Shown: in pieces, positions 4,252 through 63,649 of the stretch
Layout of the letters: each line of letters opens with the position of its first letter
Position numbering within the stretch: position 1 is the first letter of the stretch
Source of the DNA: an uncultured Flavobacteriales bacterium
GTDB taxonomy: Bacteria; Bacteroidota; Bacteroidia; Flavobacteriales; Crocinitomicaceae
DNA: 64,000 bases
NCBI GenBank assembly: GCA_946479285.1
Contig: CAMLFH010000005.1
Coordinates: 1 to 64,000 of the forward strand
Direction of reading: 5' to 3'
Made by a program: the position numbers and the translations under genes
Notes under the pieces: model-generated
Told to the model about the DNA's origin: nothing
What the model saw: only the letters and a program-made list of their open reading frames with translations
Databases searched by the model: none

Positions 4252-4710
4252 ATGGGGAATCCATTTTTTACAACTAAGAACTGGCTCTTACTGACAGATT
4301 CTGCCGTTGCGGGAAAATCAATTCAGGACTTCCAGCCCGCGAATCCTGATTCGCCGCATTCTGTTTGGGGGATTTTGAGAGAAGGTCCGGTTTATGAGAA
4401 GATTATCCCGATTTTCGATTCATCCATTCGAAATATAATTGAGACAGAAGAGGAACTGGATGATATTCCGCTTTCGCCAGAAGAACGGTTTGCATTACTC
4501 CAAAGCCTGAAATCGGAAATCAATCATTACTTGGAAAATCGCCCGGAGCCGATTGATGGTTATCATTTGGAATTAGAAGATAAAACTATTTTGATTGATT
4601 TAAGAAATAATCCGACTTGGAACAGACCATTGGGTTCATTGATCCGATTGTATGAAATCTTACGAAATGCGTATGAGAAACAACAGCCGATTTACCTAAA
4701 TACGAATTAA
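4252..4710 (+). CDS. Hypothetical protein in tRNA-Asn insertion
   Basis: A 152-residue protein that I do not recognise. It has no signal peptide, membrane segment or known catalytic motif. The middle is acidic (TEEELDDIPLSPEERF) and predicted helical, and the C-terminal half alternates short strands and helices (KTILIDLRNNPTWNRP). Base composition and codon use look like the host's. It is followed after 42 bases by another unknown gene on the same strand, and both lie between two remnants of tRNA-Asn, so they may be cargo of that insertion. An antitoxin, immunity or tail-end polymorphic-toxin role is possible but unsupported. Confidence 0.6.
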   Translation: MGNPFFTTKNWLLLTDSAVAGKSIQDFQPANPDSPHSVWGILREGPVYEKIIPIFDSSIRNIIETEEELDDIPLSPEERFALLQSLKSEINHYLENRPEPIDGYHLELEDKTILIDLRNNPTWNRPLGSLIRLYEILRNAYEKQQPIYLNTN

Positions 4711-56042: not shown

Positions 56043-57449
56043 ATGAATCTTTCTTCAAAAACAATTTGTGCCTTATCAACCGCCCCGGGAATGGGCGCTA
56101 TTGCCCTGATCCGTTTGTCCGGACCGGATGCTATTTCGATCTTGTCGCAGGTTGCCGGCAAATCGTATGAGCAGGCTGAATCTCACAGCGCACATTTTGT
56201 TCGATTGAAGAATAACGACGGTTCCGTTCTGGATGAGGTGGTGGTAACCATCTTTCATGAAGGCCGCAGCTTCACCGGAGAAAATACGGTTGAAATAGCA
56301 TGTCACGGTTCCGTATTTATTCAGCAGGAAATCATTCGTTTACTTTTGGCTCATGGTTGTGAACTGGCTAAGCCGGGAGAATTTACCATGCGTGCCTTCT
56401 TAAACGGACGAATGGATTTGAGCCAGGCAGAAGCCGTTTCCGACCTCATCGCGTCTGAATCTGCACGTTCGCATGAAGTAGCGATGAACCAGATGCGTGG
56501 CTCGTTTTCAACAGAGTTAAGAGACCTGCGTGAAAAATTGATCCATTTTGCTTCTCTGGTAGAGCTCGAACTGGATTTTGCCGAAGAAGACGTGGAATTT
56601 GCCGACCGCACGGAATTATTGGCTTTAGTAACAGAAGTGTTGGCTTATGTGCGACGGTTGATCCAGTCCTTTGAATTGGGAAATGTGTTGAAGAACGGCG
56701 TACCTGTTGCAATTGTAGGCGCACCGAATACCGGGAAAAGCACCTTGCTCAACCAGCTTTTGGGGGAGGACAGGGCAATTGTTAGCAATATTGCTGGAAC
56801 CACGCGTGATGTGATAGAAGAAACCCTGAATATTGACGGAATCCTTTTCCGATTAATCGATACTGCCGGAATCCGGGAAGAAGCTGCCGAAGAAATAGAA
56901 GCTTTGGGAATCCAGCGTTCACTGGATAAGATCAAGCAGGCGAAAATCGTGTTGATGCTGAGCGATTTTAGCGGCAACAATGCTTCCAGCGAAGGACATT
57001 TATCCATGAGTTCCGAAGAAACTGGCCGCTGGGCAGATGAACTTGCAAAAACTCATCCCGGTGCACACTTTTTAGTGATCGGAAACAAATACGATCTACG
57101 CTCAGACCAATTAAATACGCCCTGGCAATTCGAAACGCCATTTCTGCCCATCAGTGCGAAGAACGGAAGTGGAATCACGGAATTGAAAGCGTGGCTGTCA
57201 CAGCAAATTTTAGGTTCTTACAATACACAATCGGATACCATCGTAACCAATGCACGCCATTTGGATGCCCTGGAGAAAACACAGGATGCCCTGGAAAAAA
57301 CAACTTACGGACTGGAAACACAAATTACCGGAGATTTTGTGGCTATGGATATCCGCCAGGCCATGTTTTGGCTGGGAAGTATTACCGGACAGATCTCTGA
57401 AGACGACTTGCTGGCTAATATCTTTAGTAAGTTTTGTATCGGAAAGTGA
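56043..57449 (+). CDS. mnmE: tRNA uridine-5-carboxymethylaminomethyl modification GTPase
   Basis: A 468-residue GTPase that with MnmG modifies U34 of several tRNAs. The N-terminal formyl-THF-binding domain (residues 1-118) starts TICALSTAPGMGAIALIRLSG. The helical domain flanks an inserted G domain with GAPNTGKST (G1), the GTTRD region (G2), DTAG (G3), NKYD (G4) and SAKNGSG (G5). The protein ends in CIGK, the universal catalytic tail. The DNA encoding this tail (57432-57447) is repeated 3.19 kb downstream, so mnmE is the insertion site of an island, but the gene itself is intact. Confidence 0.97.
   Translation: MNLSSKTICALSTAPGMGAIALIRLSGPDAISILSQVAGKSYEQAESHSAHFVRLKNNDGSVLDEVVVTIFHEGRSFTGENTVEIACHGSVFIQQEIIRLLLAHGCELAKPGEFTMRAFLNGRMDLSQAEAVSDLIASESARSHEVAMNQMRGSFSTELRDLREKLIHFASLVELELDFAEEDVEFADRTELLALVTEVLAYVRRLIQSFELGNVLKNGVPVAIVGAPNTGKSTLLNQLLGEDRAIVSNIAGTTRDVIEETLNIDGILFRLIDTAGIREEAAEEIEALGIQRSLDKIKQAKIVLMLSDFSGNNASSEGHLSMSSEETGRWADELAKTHPGAHFLVIGNKYDLRSDQLNTPWQFETPFLPISAKNGSGITELKAWLSQQILGSYNTQSDTIVTNARHLDALEKTQDALEKTTYGLETQITGDFVAMDIRQAMFWLGSITGQISEDDLLANIFSKFCIGK
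57432..57447 (+). other. Left attachment-site-like repeat (attL) in the mnmE 3' end
   Basis: TTTTGTATCGGAAAGT spans the last codons of mnmE and is identical at 60625-60640. The SGI1 island of Salmonella integrates at an 18-bp site in the same codons of trmE/mnmE, from memory of that literature. Confidence 0.75.
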
Positions 57450-57461
57450 TTTCTCCAAACA

Positions 57462-57872
57462 ATGTATAAAGGAATTGAGATAATATCATACGATCAAATA
57501 GATTCTTGTGATTTTCATGAAATGAAATGGAATAAAGTAGAAGGGTCAAATTATATGAGTGAAATTAGAATTTTTATTGGTAAGTATTTTGAAATTTCGA
57601 CTGTTATGGAGTTTGACATAATAACATTGTTATCACTTATTCTAGAAAATGTACATGATCATGGAAGTGGTTCTTGTGCGCTTTTTGTTGGTAACGCTAA
57701 TAATGAAAAGGTAATAGAAGTATACGAGGAGAATGGTGGCTTTGATCTAGCATGTCTTCCAAATGGTGTTGGAGGTTGTGGATTTCGAGGAATTCATAGA
57801 AGTAAGGCTCAGATTAGTCATTCACCCGATGGAAAAAAAACTTATATTTTAGTTCCAAATAGAAGCGTATAG
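57462..57872 (+). CDS. Small GHKL-type ATPase-like protein
   Basis: A 136-residue protein. The segment ITLLSLILENVHDHGSG looks like the N box of histidine-kinase-type (GHKL) ATPases, especially the anti-sigma RsbW/SpoIIAB group with its E-N-x-x-x-H-G. The later EENGGFDL resembles the G1 box with an imperfect DxGxG, and NGVGGCGFRGI the G2 box. It could be an anti-sigma kinase, a stand-alone ATP-binding module, or a defence-associated GHKL. It begins 13 bases after mnmE without a visible promoter, so it may use read-through from mnmE. AT-rich codons differ from the host's. Assignment is moderate. Confidence 0.55.
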   Translation: MYKGIEIISYDQIDSCDFHEMKWNKVEGSNYMSEIRIFIGKYFEISTVMEFDIITLLSLILENVHDHGSGSCALFVGNANNEKVIEVYEENGGFDLACLPNGVGGCGFRGIHRSKAQISHSPDGKKTYILVPNRSV

Positions 57873-57919
57873 GATGCCTCAAATTTCACATCACCATCAA
57901 TTGTTTGAAAATTTCCCAC

Positions 57920-58225
57920 TCAATAGTCCGGGGCTGTTATTACTGACAAAATATCATTTACTAATGAACCCACGTCTTCCTGGGTATTGTGAACTTGTAA
58001 TTGTAGGTCTGTTAACTTGTTCTTTCGCTCCTCATTTCCGTGGTCAATTGATTTCCGATATGCCAATGCCAAGTATAAATGACCTTTGATTCCTTCAATA
58101 CCTCCGTCAGATTTTACCGTTTCTTCGTAGTAATGAGTTTCTGTTTGATAAGTAGTCCACATGTTGACATTATGAAGTTTACGAATAACAGCTTCGTATT
58201 TTTCTGAAATAGTGGGTTCATTCAT
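57920..58225 (-). CDS. Hypothetical protein, island, minus strand
   Basis: A 101-residue protein (MNEPTISEKYEAVIRK onward) chosen to start at 58225, downstream of a strong promoter; a longer frame from 58270 would overlap that promoter. It is helical and charged, with HNVNMWTTYQTETHYYEE in the middle and a hydrophobic C-terminus (LVNDILSVITAPDY). I recognise no family. It is the only island gene on the minus strand and faces the GHKL gene, from which it is 47 bases away. A small partner or immunity protein is a guess. Confidence 0.55.
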   Translation of the reverse strand: MNEPTISEKYEAVIRKLHNVNMWTTYQTETHYYEETVKSDGGIEGIKGHLYLALAYRKSIDHGNEERKNKLTDLQLQVHNTQEDVGSLVNDILSVITAPDY

Positions 58226-58240
58226 AATAATAGTTTTTTC

Positions 58241-58270
58241 CAAACATACAATTATTTTGTTTTGAGCCAA
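58241..58270 (-). promoter_or_regulatory. Promoter TTG-N19-TATGTTTG, minus strand
   Basis: A -33 TTG at 58270-58268 and a -7 box TATGTTTG at 58248-58241 with a 19-base spacer, 15 bases before the ATG at 58225. One of the best promoters in the window, and evidence that the short minus-strand gene is expressed. Confidence 0.7.
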
Positions 58271-58359
58271 CTACGCGCGCGTACGCGGGAATCCAAACCA
58301 TGTTGAAAATCTGAAATAAATTGTTATCTATGCACTAATGATCACTATTCGAACTTATT

Positions 58360-59310
58360 ATGACAACCGGAGATAAAAAAAGACAACGAATTTTTGAAGC
58401 CTATCGTGACAATCTGAATTTACTTATTGACAATGGATTCATTAAAAGAAAGAAAGATTTTTACCTATGCCCATTGTGCCTAAAGCCACATAGCAAAATT
58501 GACGAAGTAGACCCGTTAACCCTTGAAGATGCTCCACCAAAATCCTTAGGAGGCAAAGCTAATACTCTTACATGCAAGAGTTGTAACAATAAAATGGGCG
58601 GTACTGTAGATTTTCATTTAGCTGAAAGGCTAAGAGAGCTTGATAGTGCTAATTTTCTTCCTGGAACAGAAACACCTGTTCAAATTAAGAAAAACGGGAA
58701 AACATTACAAGCGACACTAACCATTATGGACGACGGAAAAATGCAGCTAATGCACAGTAAAAAGAACAATAATCCGGTCGTATTGGAAGAAGTAATGAAG
58801 GATTTTCTTGGTTCGAAGGTAAACATGAACTTTCTTAAAACACGCGTTATTCCTGATAATTTAGGGGTAGCTTTGCTAAAAACAGGCTACTTATTGGCAT
58901 TTCAGAAATTTGGCTATTCGTTTATCCTTGATGAATGCTATAATCCGGTTAGAGAGCAATTAAGAAATCCAAAGGAGCAGATTTACCCGGTTGGATTTTG
59001 GTTTCAACCATCATATCCGGAAGAGTATGCAGGAGTGTATTTTATTGTAGAGAAAGGACTCGAATGTATTCTTTCAATGTTTGTGGTCAAAACTGGTAAG
59101 TCACAACGGTTTTTTGGAGTCATCTTACCCTTGCCAATTCATCCAACTGAAGAACTCATTTCAAAACTCAATGAAAGGCTAGAGAATGAAAAAGAATTCA
59201 GCATAGGAATATATCCAAGTCCCAACGAACAAGAAAAAATGAATTACTTGAACTCAGAAGCAAACATAAAAGCAATGTATGAATGGATTGAGAAAAGAAA
59301 GAAAGCTTGA
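58360..59310 (+). CDS. HNH_5-type endonuclease domain protein
   Basis: A 316-residue protein. The N-terminal 90 residues hold an HNH-type zinc finger: cysteines in LCPLCLKPH, then LTLEDAPPKSLGGKAN, then LTCKSCNNKMGG. The pattern C-x2-C, L-T-x-E-D-x-P-P, LGG, C-x2-C-N is that of HNH_5-like nucleases, with E-D in place of the H of the usual E-H. The remaining 220 residues have no clear family, with a hydrophobic stretch near 165-185 (LLKTGYLLAFQKFGYSF). Such proteins occur in defence islands and mobile elements. It is upstream of the coupled pair by 101 bases. Nuclease activity is inferred. Confidence 0.72.
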   Translation: MTTGDKKRQRIFEAYRDNLNLLIDNGFIKRKKDFYLCPLCLKPHSKIDEVDPLTLEDAPPKSLGGKANTLTCKSCNNKMGGTVDFHLAERLRELDSANFLPGTETPVQIKKNGKTLQATLTIMDDGKMQLMHSKKNNNPVVLEEVMKDFLGSKVNMNFLKTRVIPDNLGVALLKTGYLLAFQKFGYSFILDECYNPVREQLRNPKEQIYPVGFWFQPSYPEEYAGVYFIVEKGLECILSMFVVKTGKSQRFFGVILPLPIHPTEELISKLNERLENEKEFSIGIYPSPNEQEKMNYLNSEANIKAMYEWIEKRKKA

Positions 59311-59411
59311 AGTTGTGCATGTATTTCAGTCAGTTTGGTATTGTCGTCTAAATCTAAGAAAGAAATGAGCAAGAACACTTGCAAAACATTCAATTTTATT
59401 ATCTATGTAAT

Positions 59412-59882
59412 ATGGATTATCAAGTAGAAGAAATAAGCATCACGGATAAACTTGTGGAACTCGGTTTAGCAATACCCGAAAGCTTGGCGTTTATGCCCGA
59501 GAATTTAAATAGTGCAACCGCAAAAGAAGATTTCATTTTCACAGATAGTTTGGTTGACTTGAATAAATTATTCCGGCAGAAAAATTTAGGTTTCGATGTG
59601 TTAGGTGGGGATACGGAACTTTACAGAACACGGAAAAATGCAGACATGTATTTGCCCGCTGTATTTCTTAGTATTATTGAAAACCCTCTGATTTCATCTG
59701 TGGTGCTAAATATCCTATCAAGTTATGTCTACGATTCTCTAAAGGGAATAATCGGAAAAAAAACTGTTCATGTTGAGCTGTATATTGAACTTGGGAAGAA
59801 GGGAAAAATCAAGAAAATCTCGTACAATGGAGATGCAGACAAATTGAAAGATTTGGAGAATGTAATTAAAGCTCTGAAATGA
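59412..59882 (+). CDS. Hypothetical protein, first gene of coupled pair
   Basis: A 156-residue protein starting at 59412 (MDYQVEEISITDKLVELG); a TTG at 59379 in frame is less likely. It is acidic at the N-terminus. Residues about 85-115 include NPLISSVVLNILSSYVYDSLKG, a possible amphipathic or membrane-inserting helix, and the C-terminal 40 residues are two strands plus helix (VHVELYIELGKKGKIKKISY). I cannot name a family, though the combination suggests an effector-type module. Its stop codon overlaps the start of the next gene by four bases, so the two products are probably made in fixed ratio and may interact. Confidence 0.62.
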   Translation: MDYQVEEISITDKLVELGLAIPESLAFMPENLNSATAKEDFIFTDSLVDLNKLFRQKNLGFDVLGGDTELYRTRKNADMYLPAVFLSIIENPLISSVVLNILSSYVYDSLKGIIGKKTVHVELYIELGKKGKIKKISYNGDADKLKDLENVIKALK

Positions 59883-60541
59883 AAGTATTTATCGAAAACC
59901 CAAATCTATTGATAAACGAATTCAATGAGTTGATTTCCATTTCTCAAAGAAAAGCATTTATCACAGTTGGAACAGAAATTCAAGAGAAGGAGATAGAGGT
60001 TTTATCTAACTACCGGGAACAATTGGTTGACTTAAAAAAGACATTTGTTGAACGAAAACTAGAAAATGAAGCCAATCTAGTCTATTGCATAGAAAATTCA
60101 ATTCTAGCGATTGAACTTGAATTGACAATGTTAGTGAATATCAAAAAGGATAACATGGGCGAAGCATGGGGGAATCTCGTCACGGCGCAAGTTACCTATG
60201 GAACGGTGATAAAAAACAATTTATTCGATCCAGAACCATCGACAACTTATTTGGAACGGCTAGCTAACTATGAAAAATTGTTATTTCCTCCGCAAATTTT
60301 CAGCAGTGTTGGCGGTATTGTGAAGAAAAGTCATTGTTCAATTTGTAATGAAAGTTTTAGCAAGTGTGAACACATGAAGGGAAAACTATATTTTGGAGAG
60401 ATTTGTGTACGCGTCATTTCAGAAATGGAACTTGAAGAAGCTTCGATAGTTGAAAATCCTGCAAACAAACATTGCCGAATGCTTAAAATTGATAATATCG
60501 ATACGATGACAATGAGACAAGTCATTGATGAAAATGAGTAG
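59879..60541 (+). CDS. Protein with Cys/His metal-binding motif, second gene of coupled pair
   Basis: A 220-residue protein. The N-terminal 130 residues are helical (coiled-coil-like QEKEIEVLSNYREQLVDLK). Near residue 153 begins a distinctive motif: CSICNESFSKCEHMKGKLY, then GEICVRVISEMELEEASIV and PANKHCRML. The C-x2-C, C-x-H, C arrangement with a downstream E-x-S-x-V-x-x-P-A-N is like a segment found in some phage and mobile-element proteins, from memory only. It ends 84 bases before the right repeat of the island. A metal-dependent or structural role is plausible; nothing proves it. Confidence 0.6.
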   Translation: MKVFIENPNLLINEFNELISISQRKAFITVGTEIQEKEIEVLSNYREQLVDLKKTFVERKLENEANLVYCIENSILAIELELTMLVNIKKDNMGEAWGNLVTAQVTYGTVIKNNLFDPEPSTTYLERLANYEKLLFPPQIFSSVGGIVKKSHCSICNESFSKCEHMKGKLYFGEICVRVISEMELEEASIVENPANKHCRMLKIDNIDTMTMRQVIDENE

Positions 60542-60567
60542 ATAGCAATTAGAGTTTGTAGTGCTAT

Positions 60568-60586
60568 TTTGTACCCTATTTGTACC
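60568..60586 (+). repeat. Paired TTTGTACC repeats near the right end of the island
   Basis: TTTGTACC at 60568-60575 and 60579-60586, exactly 11 bases apart (one helical turn), about 40 bases inside the right attL/attR-like repeat. The arrangement fits binding by a tyrosine recombinase arm domain or an accessory protein. Confidence 0.45.
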
Positions 60587-60624
60587 TCAAAATCATAACT
60601 ATTTGAAAATCAATTTGAGTTAAT

Positions 60625-60640
60625 TTTTGTATCGGAAAGT
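60625..60640 (+). other. Right attachment-site-like repeat (attR)
   Basis: An exact copy of the 16 bases at the mnmE end. Read in the mnmE frame it encodes CIGK and then TAA, so it is a displaced mnmE terminus. The bases before it do not match mnmE, which limits the duplicated site to about 16-18 bp. Confidence 0.75.
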
Positions 60641-60742
60641 AAGTTCCCGTCAAATCCTTTAACATTCCTAAAAGCAACTTATTCCACGCATTTTCGTTAA
60701 TATTACAGAAGAAGCTAATCTTCTGCATTATTACTGAAATCG

Positions 60743-63649
60743 ATGAAAAAAACAGCCCCGTTTTTGTCGAATGAAACCGCTGGAAAAGGAACCGTTATCC
60801 CGTTGCTTTCTCAGTGTTTTTTATTCATCTCGCTGCTTTTCTTTTCCTACGGAGTAAAGGCCCAGGGAGACGATTGTGCTACTGCATTGCCATTGACGAA
60901 TGTCACCAACTTTTGTTCTTCCACAGCACAATACACCAGCACCGGTTCAACCGCAAGCGGATTTGCAGTAGCCACCTGCTGGACAGCTGCAGCTACTTCG
61001 GACGTTTGGTTTTCCTTCGTTGCAATCGGCACCAACTCGTTTATTTCCATTAATGGTGCGAGTATGATGCAGCCAAGGATCGCGATTTACACAGGTACTT
61101 GTGCGGGAGGAATTACACAGGTTCTCGGCGGATGTACGAACGGATCTGCAGGTTCTCAAAACTCCCAACTGCTTAATACTAACCTGGTTCAGGGAAACAC
61201 TTATCTTATCCGCATAAGTACAACAACGGCTCAGCGCGGTACTTTCCAGTTGTGCATCAATAATTATACGCCGCCGCCAACTGCATCTGCAGATTGTGGA
61301 GGTGCCGGAAGATTGTGTAACAAGAATTCGATTAGTGTTACCAACCTGACAAGTGGTGGTGTAAACAACAATGAAAATGCGGGCACTTGTTTGTCCGGTT
61401 TCGGGATTTTTGAAACCAATTCGGTTTGGTATACCTGGACTTGTCAGACTGCAGGAACACTTACGATGAATATTTTGCCGGCAAATCAAATAGATGACAT
61501 TGACTTTATTGTTTTTCAATTAAGTACGGCAAATCCATGTGGTCCAAGAACTGCGATCCGCTGCTCCGCAACATCTGCTTTAGGCCCGAATGGTGGTACG
61601 GGAATGAATGCAACTTCCACGGATCAGAATGAAGCGATCGGTTGGTCGGGAATTGAAGACGGGTATGTGCAGCAGCTGAATATGACAGCAGGAACAAGTT
61701 ATGCCATTCTCATTAACAATACGAATGCAACCAATGGATTTACACTGAATTGGGGTGGAACGGGAACATTCGTCGGCCCGGATGCAAATATCACAGGCGG
61801 ACCTTTTACCGTTTGTGCGGGAACTCCGATATTGATTGACGGAAGCACTTCTACGGATTACAATACATTGAGCTGGAACTTTGTAAACGGATCAGGAACA
61901 CCTGCAAATCCAACGGGGCCAGGACCGCATTCGGTGACTTATACGACTCCTGGGACCTTTGTAGCTATATTGAACGCAACCTCTGCCACCGGATGTACTT
62001 CCGTAGAAACAGCAACAGTAACTGTAAGTTCAAGTGTGACTCCAACTTTTGCCGCAGTTCCGGCTTTTTGTTCTGGTCAGCAGGCTCCTGCATTTCCGGT
62101 TCAGACCAATACACCGCTTGTCGCAGGGACCTGGTCGCCAAACGTAATTAGCAATACCACTTCCGGAACTTATACTTTTACACCGAATGCCGGGCAATGT
62201 AACTCTACACCGGTGAATATTTCAGTTACGGTCAATAACACCATTACACCAACTTTCCCGGCGCATCCGCAGTATTGTTTGAATGCTGCGCCGCAGTCTT
62301 TGCCAACAACTTCCGATAACGGAGTTGCAGGAACCTGGTCACCATCAACTGTGAGCACGGCAACCGCCGGAACTGCTAATTATACTTTTACCCCATCCGG
62401 AAATCCATGTGCGGCTTCGGTGACTGTTGCAATTGTTACAAATGCGGCGCCAACGCCCTCCTTTACTCAAATTCCACCGATTTGTTCGGGAGATGTTGCT
62501 CCGATTTTACCGGCCGCTTCGAATGATCCTATTTCGGGGACCTGGTCACCGGCAGTAGTGAATACTACTACTTCAGGGACTTATACATTTACACCGGATG
62601 CCGGACAATGTGCCACAACAGCTACGATGTCGATCACGGTAAACAATCCGGTAGTACCAACCTTGACCTCGGCGGGACCTTTCTGTGAAAATACCGCAGC
62701 TCCAGCGAATTTAACAGCGAATATTCCGGGAGGAACCTGGTCGGGAACAGGAATCACGGATCCAACCGGAGTTTTTGATCCGATTGTTGCCGGAGCAGGA
62801 ACTCATACCATTACTTATGTGCATACTCAAGGTTGCGGCGGAACAAACTCCATGGACATTGTGGTAAATCCCTTGCCGGATTCAGATTTTTCAGCAGATG
62901 TTTTCAGCGGCTGCAATCCTGTAACGGTTCATTTTACTGCGGATCCTTCCGTGAATACTTCTTCCTGGGATTTTGGGGATAATACAACAGCCAATACCCT
63001 TGGAGCTGCTGAACACACTTATAATGCGGCAGGAACATATACAGTAACCTTAACGAATACTACGAACGGATGTTCATCCAGTACTACAAAAACCAATTAC
63101 ATCGAGATTTACCCGATTCCGGATGCAAATTTTAATACCAATCAGCAGGTAATGCCGCAAACAGAGACGACTGCTCAGTTTCACAATCATTCGGTGAATG
63201 GAGATGTGTATTTCTGGGAATTCGGTGACGGAGACAACAGCTCTTTGGAAGAACCAAGCCATACATTCCCGCAGGTTCCCGGGAACTATCCGGTTACTTT
63301 AACGGTGACCAGTGTAAATGGCTGTACGGATGCAGCTTCCCTGATCATTACTATAAAAGACAATAAGATTATCTATGTTCCGAATACCTTTACACCGGAT
63401 GGTGACGAATTCAATAATGTATTTGCTCCGGTAATTACTGCGGGTTATGATACTCAGAATTATTCCTTCACGATTTTTGACCGCTGGGGAGAAACCCTGT
63501 TTGAATCCCACGACGTGAATAAAGGCTGGGATGGAACCTATCTGGGAAAATTAGTCCAGGCAGGAATTTATACCTGGACGATCCGTATCAAGAGCCTGGA
63601 GGATGACCGCTACGAGGTGTTCAACGGCCATCTGAATATGTTGAGGTAG
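60743..63649 (+). CDS. Large T9SS type B adhesin-like protein
   Basis: A 968-residue secreted protein. The signal peptide is long (hydrophobic CFLFISLLFFSYGVKAQ near residue 25-41). The N-terminal 330 residues hold two jelly-roll-like domains with paired cysteines. About 350-440 and 720-880 contain PKD domains (WDFGDNTTANTL, FWEFGDGDNSS). Between them are three tandem units of about 68 residues sharing GTWSPxxV and TYTFTP. The C-terminus is a type B sorting domain (YVPNTFTPDGDEFNNVF, then FDRWGETLFESHD and GWDGTYLGKLVQAGIY). Type B proteins include gliding adhesins such as SprB. Probably a surface adhesion protein. Confidence 0.88.
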   Translation: MKKTAPFLSNETAGKGTVIPLLSQCFLFISLLFFSYGVKAQGDDCATALPLTNVTNFCSSTAQYTSTGSTASGFAVATCWTAAATSDVWFSFVAIGTNSFISINGASMMQPRIAIYTGTCAGGITQVLGGCTNGSAGSQNSQLLNTNLVQGNTYLIRISTTTAQRGTFQLCINNYTPPPTASADCGGAGRLCNKNSISVTNLTSGGVNNNENAGTCLSGFGIFETNSVWYTWTCQTAGTLTMNILPANQIDDIDFIVFQLSTANPCGPRTAIRCSATSALGPNGGTGMNATSTDQNEAIGWSGIEDGYVQQLNMTAGTSYAILINNTNATNGFTLNWGGTGTFVGPDANITGGPFTVCAGTPILIDGSTSTDYNTLSWNFVNGSGTPANPTGPGPHSVTYTTPGTFVAILNATSATGCTSVETATVTVSSSVTPTFAAVPAFCSGQQAPAFPVQTNTPLVAGTWSPNVISNTTSGTYTFTPNAGQCNSTPVNISVTVNNTITPTFPAHPQYCLNAAPQSLPTTSDNGVAGTWSPSTVSTATAGTANYTFTPSGNPCAASVTVAIVTNAAPTPSFTQIPPICSGDVAPILPAASNDPISGTWSPAVVNTTTSGTYTFTPDAGQCATTATMSITVNNPVVPTLTSAGPFCENTAAPANLTANIPGGTWSGTGITDPTGVFDPIVAGAGTHTITYVHTQGCGGTNSMDIVVNPLPDSDFSADVFSGCNPVTVHFTADPSVNTSSWDFGDNTTANTLGAAEHTYNAAGTYTVTLTNTTNGCSSSTTKTNYIEIYPIPDANFNTNQQVMPQTETTAQFHNHSVNGDVYFWEFGDGDNSSLEEPSHTFPQVPGNYPVTLTVTSVNGCTDAASLIITIKDNKIIYVPNTFTPDGDEFNNVFAPVITAGYDTQNYSFTIFDRWGETLFESHDVNKGWDGTYLGKLVQAGIYTWTIRIKSLEDDRYEVFNGHLNMLR

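Follow-up and report, generated by a model that had tools for sequence, protein, structure and literature searches.

We analyzed a 64-kb stretch of DNA from an uncultured Flavobacteriales bacterium (contig CAMLFH010000005.1, positions 1 to 64,000), referred to here as the window. The segment at 57432–60640, which begins in the last codons of mnmE, is very probably a site-specific insertion at the mnmE 3' end, related to a family of islands that use this gene end in Bacteroidota. This judgment is based on a duplicated core, on relatives with an empty site, on a right arm at conserved spacing, and on the presence of the same end on other elements. It covers the insertion and the link to the family, and not the route of mobilization in cis. 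The insertion would have been made by a tyrosine recombinase with Arm-DNA-bind_5 and Phage_int_SAM_5 domains, as used by Bacteroidota elements at mnmE. Because no tyrosine integrase lies near its left end, the island is, judged from its sequence, an integrase-less, non-autonomous relative of the family and not an autonomous member.

The duplicated mnmE end and the empty site

The 16-bp sequence TTTTGTATCGGAAAGT at the end of mnmE (57432–57447) occurs a second time, exactly and on the same strand, at 60625–60640. The left copy encodes the tail FCIGK with the stop codon TGA, and the right copy is followed by TAA. With up to two mismatches allowed, these were the only two matches in the window; 100 shuffled sequences gave a mean of 0.13 matches, and none reached two. 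The 3.2-kb block between the copies contains five accessory open reading frames. A preliminary description of this DNA had reported an exact 16-bp duplication of the mnmE tail bracketing five genes, and both its coordinates and its strand were confirmed, beyond the shuffle expectation. The same description called one gene clearly AT-rich. AT-richness was found, but it is not restricted to one gene: the G + C content of the whole insert is 34.8%, and the minimum among 218 overlapping segments of equal size upstream of the island was 38.3%. The features of the site are as follows.

56043..57449, + strand: mnmE, 468 amino acids, the target gene, whose last codons form the left junction; 92% identical to that of a Fluviicola metagenome-assembled genome (L001)
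57432..57447, + strand: left copy of the 16-bp repeat (attL core), exact repeat match
60568..60586, + strand: right-arm repeat pair TTTGTACC-CTA-TTTGTACC, 60 and 49 bp before the right core
60620..60642, + strand: right junction (attR), imperfect inverted repeat TTAATTTT / TGTATCG / GAAAGTAA
60625..60640, + strand: right copy of the 16-bp repeat, exact repeat match
60743..63649, + strand: native right neighbor, a PKD/type IX secretion protein of 968 amino acids, assigned by Pfam and the gene order of relatives

The right-hand gene adjoins mnmE in two relatives and is one small gene apart from it in a third. The site is empty in Fluviicola G017 (L092) and G011 (L082), where mnmE with a single tail copy is followed, after about 120 and 215 bp, respectively, by a homologue of the right-hand gene. 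Identity to the window gene is 84% over 460 visible residues in G017 and 83% over 418 in G011. A tblastn search of these two mnmE loci with the five cargo proteins found none of them. The preliminary description had expected relatives without the island to carry one copy of the site, and both do. The mnmE stop codon is TAA in both empty relatives and in the right copy of the window. Since the left copy has TGA, it probably came with the element, and the right copy would be the displaced native tail, as far as three sequences indicate.

The best match to the window mnmE after L001 was L002 (CP034120.1, 89% identity), a record named Glaciecola amylolytica; with an mnmE this similar to that of the Fluviicola-like window, the record may bear the wrong name. 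In L001, mnmE and the right-hand gene are separated by another gene, of 117 amino acids, and there is no clear second core. A degenerate second core was considered there and was too weak to count. Strict tail matches were found once each in 13 of the 14 Fluviicola genomes; G019 has a second one, far away inside another gene.

Reuse of the mnmE 3' end was examined in 78 of the 80 best-mnmE-match loci, which exclude the window and whose downstream stretches vary in length (599 kb in all). Using a degenerate pattern, we found a second copy of FCIGK plus stop within 10 kb downstream on the same strand in 7 of the 78 loci; the controls (downstream on the opposite strand, upstream, and upstream on the opposite strand) each gave 0 of 78. 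The seven include L034, whose copy adjoins N bases and was for this reason not used as an element, and L040, whose copy is 7.9 kb away and may be due to chance. L003 was dropped as a second-copy element, as the pair taken ended at mnmE itself and the downstream copy had no following stop.

The tail pattern matched at least once in 261 of 299 genomes of the order. Because some genomes, a minority, also matched the pattern read backward, isolated matches carry little weight; close same-strand pairs were selected by eye among the matches listed. L096 contains a type I restriction methylase with partners (by eye), L104 a HipA-type toxin–antitoxin, L105 a Fic protein matching SoFic, and L102 a pair of an AAA ATPase and an S8 protease matching IetA and IetS; the genes of L101 and L103 look ordinary. 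L049, from the mnmE-match loci, has an AbiEii-type protein. Among the right-arm elements described below, L216 has a Septu pair and L165 a RhuM/Fic protein matching PDC-S23.

The right end shared with other elements

The right-arm pair was the sole match in the window even with three mismatches allowed; at this tolerance, 11 of 100 shuffled sequences had one. Among the 13 second-copy elements compared, TTTGTACC was present 46–61 bp before the second core in five. The full pair was found in the window, L100, and L102, and one exact repeat in L104 and L105. Across 1.8 Mb of loci, some of which overlap, TTTGTACC occurs 117 times when both strands are counted.

When the arm pair was searched alone with up to one mismatch, 18 matches were obtained in 18 of the 299 order genomes (backward control, 1) and 28 in 24 of 395 genomes of the class (backward control, 2); a few genomes are common to both samples. 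An mnmE-tail core was located 60, 61, or 82 bp downstream of the pair in 10 of the 18 order matches and 13 of the 28 class matches (8 cases at 60, 10 at 61, and 5 at 82 bp). The core search had already turned up two of the ten order matches (G284 and G242). A step of 21 bp in spacing may correspond to two helical turns. The arm matches without a core include two left arms beside an integrase (L204 and L206) and L145, which lies inside mnmE; several others have decayed or different cores, and the rest are without explanation.

The core consensus over the 23 right ends was TTACTTTT-TGTATCG-GAAAGTAA, whose halves are inverted repeats of each other apart from one mismatch; the invariance of the 7-bp center between them is partly built in because these ends were picked for having a core. 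An inverted repeat around a short center is expected of the core of a tyrosine recombinase. The right end of the window recurs in Fluviicola G002 (L169, near 19358) at a place other than mnmE, where 53 of 60 bp are identical and the identity stops at the predicted core. This locus is possibly a secondary insertion site. The same arm-plus-core end is found on other Bacteroidota elements, both with and without a tyrosine integrase.

We tabulated 18 right-arm elements, 13 without an intact integrase (613 bp to 5.2 kb) and 5 with one (10.6–17.6 kb); the set is biased towards small elements, as stretches of up to 20 kb were fetched. In either group, the right arm lies 60, 61, or 82 bp from the core, except in L104 (46 bp), and the 60 bp of L168 is by construction, as its right end was placed by the arm and not by the core. 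Integrase-bearing members have left-arm repeats at about +138 and +149. An exact left-arm repeat at +137/138 was present in four of the five integrase-bearing elements and in none of the 13 integrase-less ones; L207, L210, and L165 (reversed) have a one-mismatch repeat elsewhere in the first 260 bp. L174 was dropped from the cassette list, because the offset of its arms is that of a left arm and the contig stops at this point.

The window island has the mnmE-tail core at both ends and the TTTGTACC pair 60 bp before the right core; it has neither a tyrosine integrase near the left end nor left-arm repeats at about +138/+149. It would have lost, or never possessed, an integrase, further backbone genes, and a left arm. 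The absence of a recombinase, as in the preliminary description, was upheld: no integrase was found by Pfam among the five island proteins, and tblastn of six mnmE-associated integrases against the window gave chance-level matches alone (best E 0.09, outside the island). Remnants of backbone genes were found neither in the window nor in 11 other integrase-less elements. The earlier alternative of a decayed island or one mobilized in trans can be sharpened to an element with an intact right arm and no left arm or backbone genes.

The 13 integrase-less elements, including the window, and L169 were compared all against all by blastn. The window island matched 6 of the 13 other sequences (L102, L165, L167, L168, L169, and L207), and each of these matches, 24–103 bp long, falls in the last ~100 bp of the island. 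Some internal sequence is also common to L164, L165, and L166. By blastn, L163 and L220 are 78% identical over a 2.9-kb stretch, and the Fic-carrying stretches of L105 and L045 are 71% identical over 812 bp.

Circular and tandem forms were also observed. In L144 (IMGVR_UViG_3300043395_004351), an IMG/VR contig of 7.8 kb, the ends carry a terminal repeat of 127 bp and are bridged by an integrase frame. The contig was therefore assembled as a circle, and it resembles a circularized mnmE element of the integrase-bearing kind, with one core, a right arm 82 bp before the core, and left arms at +138, +149, and +179. This circular-looking mnmE element sits in a viral collection. In G103 (L220, G103:C1:1-15600), mnmE is followed in tandem by a 10.1-kb block with genes reading like pyrimidine breakdown (by eye), a 1.3-kb ATPase block, a small gene, and an integrase; each boundary has a core, and TTTGTACC is absent there.

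Integrases at mnmE and possible routes of movement

L098 is a 50-kb element at mnmE. With its integrase as the query, a related integrase was found in 10 of the 80 mnmE loci, always with its start no more than about 0.65 kb past mnmE. The L025 integrase gave 26 matches in 23 of the 299 order genomes (E ≤ 1e-40). Among these 26, mnmE is directly upstream of 21, an mnmE-tail core alone precedes three, for which mnmE is absent from the fetched flank, and two have neither. This clade beside mnmE supports the earlier proposal that the mnmE 3' end serves as a target in a distant phylum. The L171 integrase has Arm-DNA-bind_5, Phage_int_SAM_5, and Phage_integrase domains, and its neighbors include two HTH_17 proteins, a DUF3987 protein, and a DUF6371 protein. 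One genome with a clade integrase at mnmE has a second behind an mnmE-tail core with no mnmE upstream (L219, G057:C9). Related integrases were matched in 193 records, and none of the four examined, which are fecal records named 'Bacteriophage sp.', had a terminal repeat. In L227 (MT837961.1), an mnmE-like tail near 4269 lies just before the related integrase, and this record is probably host DNA with an island.

From these comparisons, recombination would take place in the 7-bp center TGTATCG. The element would supply its own FCIGK-stop tail, so that mnmE stays intact, and integration between the element core and the mnmE tail would push the native tail to the far end. An integrase-bearing relative could then insert on the mnmE side and form a composite with the left arm of the newcomer and the right arm of the present element. 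Both elements could then leave together, which is the behavior of a cis-mobilizable element. We favor this route, mobilization in cis after insertion of an integrase-bearing neighbor, as it would fit the kept right arm and the missing left arm.

Several results weigh against our interpretation. A left arm was not found in the window island, and no excised form of the element was seen. None of the 14 Fluviicola genomes carries the mnmE integrase (two weak matches, with E values of 2e-21 and 9e-21, have no core in the fetched flank); thus, no helper is known in Fluviicola. Retention of the right arm is partly a selection effect, as 8 of the 13 integrase-less elements, and all five integrase-bearing ones, were found by that arm. 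On the available sequences, the arms differ across the wider second-copy set, because 8 of the 13 elements compared have no TTTGTACC near the right core. In the blastn comparison, 7 of the 13 other sequences had no match to the window at E 1e-4.

A first alternative, which we hold to be less likely than not, is a dead relic, left fixed after internal deletions in an integrase-bearing island. L207, otherwise integrase-less, keeps the remnant of an integrase directly behind mnmE (E about 1e-14) and shows that decay is one route to an integrase-less element, and L168 has the arm with a decayed core. Against a relic, the two cores of the window and its arm pair are undamaged, and no trace of the backbone was detected.

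It is rather unlikely that the island is a true integrase-less cassette, for which one arm and two cores suffice and which the mnmE integrase of another element excises and inserts in trans. Such a cassette would agree with the right end common to elements with different cargo, with element sizes down to 0.6 kb, and with the 13 integrase-less versus five integrase-bearing elements seen whole in a set biased to small ones. It would also agree with the related cargo of different genomes (L163/L220 and L105/L045), but L220 and L045 are without the TTTGTACC right arm. Lambda-type integrases usually need both arms, and the window, like the other integrase-less elements, has no exact left-arm repeat, unlike four of the five integrase-bearing ones.

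Exchange of a gene block by homologous recombination between the conserved flanks, with the repeat being incidental, could explain the different small gene at the same junction of L001; it leaves the exact tail repeat, the fixed-spacing arm pair, and the integrases at this site unexplained and is very improbable. A chance repeat in an ordinary intergenic region is favored by the shortness of the repeat alone and has a negligible probability in view of the shuffled sequences, the empty relatives, the G + C content, and the second copies in 7 versus 0 of 78 loci.

Related islands and cargo genes

Cis-mobilizable elements (CIMEs) keep attL and attR and are without integration and transfer genes, as described in the available part of PMC5704250. 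Similarly, the window element appears to keep cores at both ends and the right arm, and no integration or transfer genes were found in it. Its right end is common with integrase-bearing elements, and an integrase remnant is seen in L207 alone, which bears on a CIME-like origin by loss. The target and the phylum differ from those of the CIME examples given there, and we can only infer the parent element and the movement. The Dehalococcoides ssrA islands, in the accessible text of PMC3146451, resemble the mnmE family in having a repeat of the 3' end of a conserved gene, tandem islands, and integrase-less members (15 without an integration module); they use a serine recombinase and a transfer-messenger RNA gene, whereas the mnmE family uses tyrosine-type integrases and a protein gene.

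SGI1 and MGIVchHai6 use the trmE (mnmE) 3' end (PMC5704250, PMC8409611) and thus have the 3' end of the same gene as their target as the window island. In the accessible parts of these sources, they are gammaproteobacterial and have their own tyrosine integrase, unlike the window island. No cargo protein of the window matches a mobility family in Pfam, where no direct comparison with SGI1 proteins is included. The 10K and 50K islands of Riemerella anatipestifer, which have an integrase and flanking direct repeats (PMC6764341, PMC9745183), are also from Bacteroidota but are placed by the available text at or downstream of a tRNA gene, not mnmE. From what these sources present, the mnmE/trmE target, the type of mechanism, and integrase-less islands are already known singly (SGI1, CIMEs, and Dehalococcoides ssrA islands). 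A literature search, which covered a minority of subscription papers and no preprints, found among the papers listed none on mnmE/trmE islands in Bacteroidota, on the present Bacteroidota family, on its arm signature, or on integrase-free members at mnmE.

We tentatively propose, with doubts that still outweigh our confidence, that the Bacteroidota mnmE 3' end is a cassette platform. Small integrase-free, one-armed cassettes, with defense, toxin–antitoxin, or metabolic cargo (0.6–10 kb), would be captured, stacked in tandem, and re-mobilized by the recombinase of integrase-bearing elements, and the window island would be one such cassette. The signature of an mnmE-tail core and paired TTTGTACC at 60/61 or 82 bp is searchable and delimits islands even without an integrase. 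A recurring landing site in Bacteroidota is a place to look for candidate defense genes, and it offers a small system in which the movement of integrase-less islands becomes testable.

The five cargo genes of the window are as follows.

57462..57872, + strand: cargo 1, 136 amino acids, without a Pfam or PADLOC match
57920..58270, − strand: cargo 2, 116 amino acids, TTG start (or possibly a shorter frame from an ATG), without a match above the Pfam cut-off or in PADLOC
58360..59310, + strand: cargo 3, 316 amino acids, probable HNH endonuclease (HNH_5, below the Pfam cut-off)
59415..59882, + strand: cargo 4, 155 amino acids, 26 relatives found
59879..60541, + strand: cargo 5, 220 amino acids, with invariant cysteines, overlapping cargo 4 by 4 bp

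Cargo 3 matched HNH_5 with an E value of 3.8e-5 and 24 bits (cut-off, 27.5). Its relatives comprise 340 proteins including itself; among the 120 listed, one is named HNH endonuclease and a few have HNH_5. Cargo 3 is thus probably an HNH protein, and cargo 1 and cargo 2 are orphans. In the comparison with anti-phage defense systems, none of the five cargo proteins matched a PADLOC model at E ≤ 1. A defense role is our guess, extrapolated from some sister elements that carry defense genes. The predicted structure of cargo 5 (mean pLDDT, the predicted local distance difference test score, 77.7) had no PDB match at E ≤ 0.001, and the model of cargo 4 (mean pLDDT 54.3) was too weak for use. Relatives of cargo 3 or cargo 5 were not found in viral contigs.

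The relatives of cargo 5 comprise 208 proteins including itself, 120 of them listed. Relatives were detected in 4 of the 395 class genomes, all distant (27–37% identity), and in 210 plasmid records, all below 60% identity, of which three cover at least 80% of cargo 5. Several relatives of cargo 4 and of cargo 5 are on contigs of equal size (339454, 6277, 3078, 2247, and 1785 bp). As this suggests that relatives of both share contigs, cargo 4 and cargo 5 seem to form a conserved two-gene pair.

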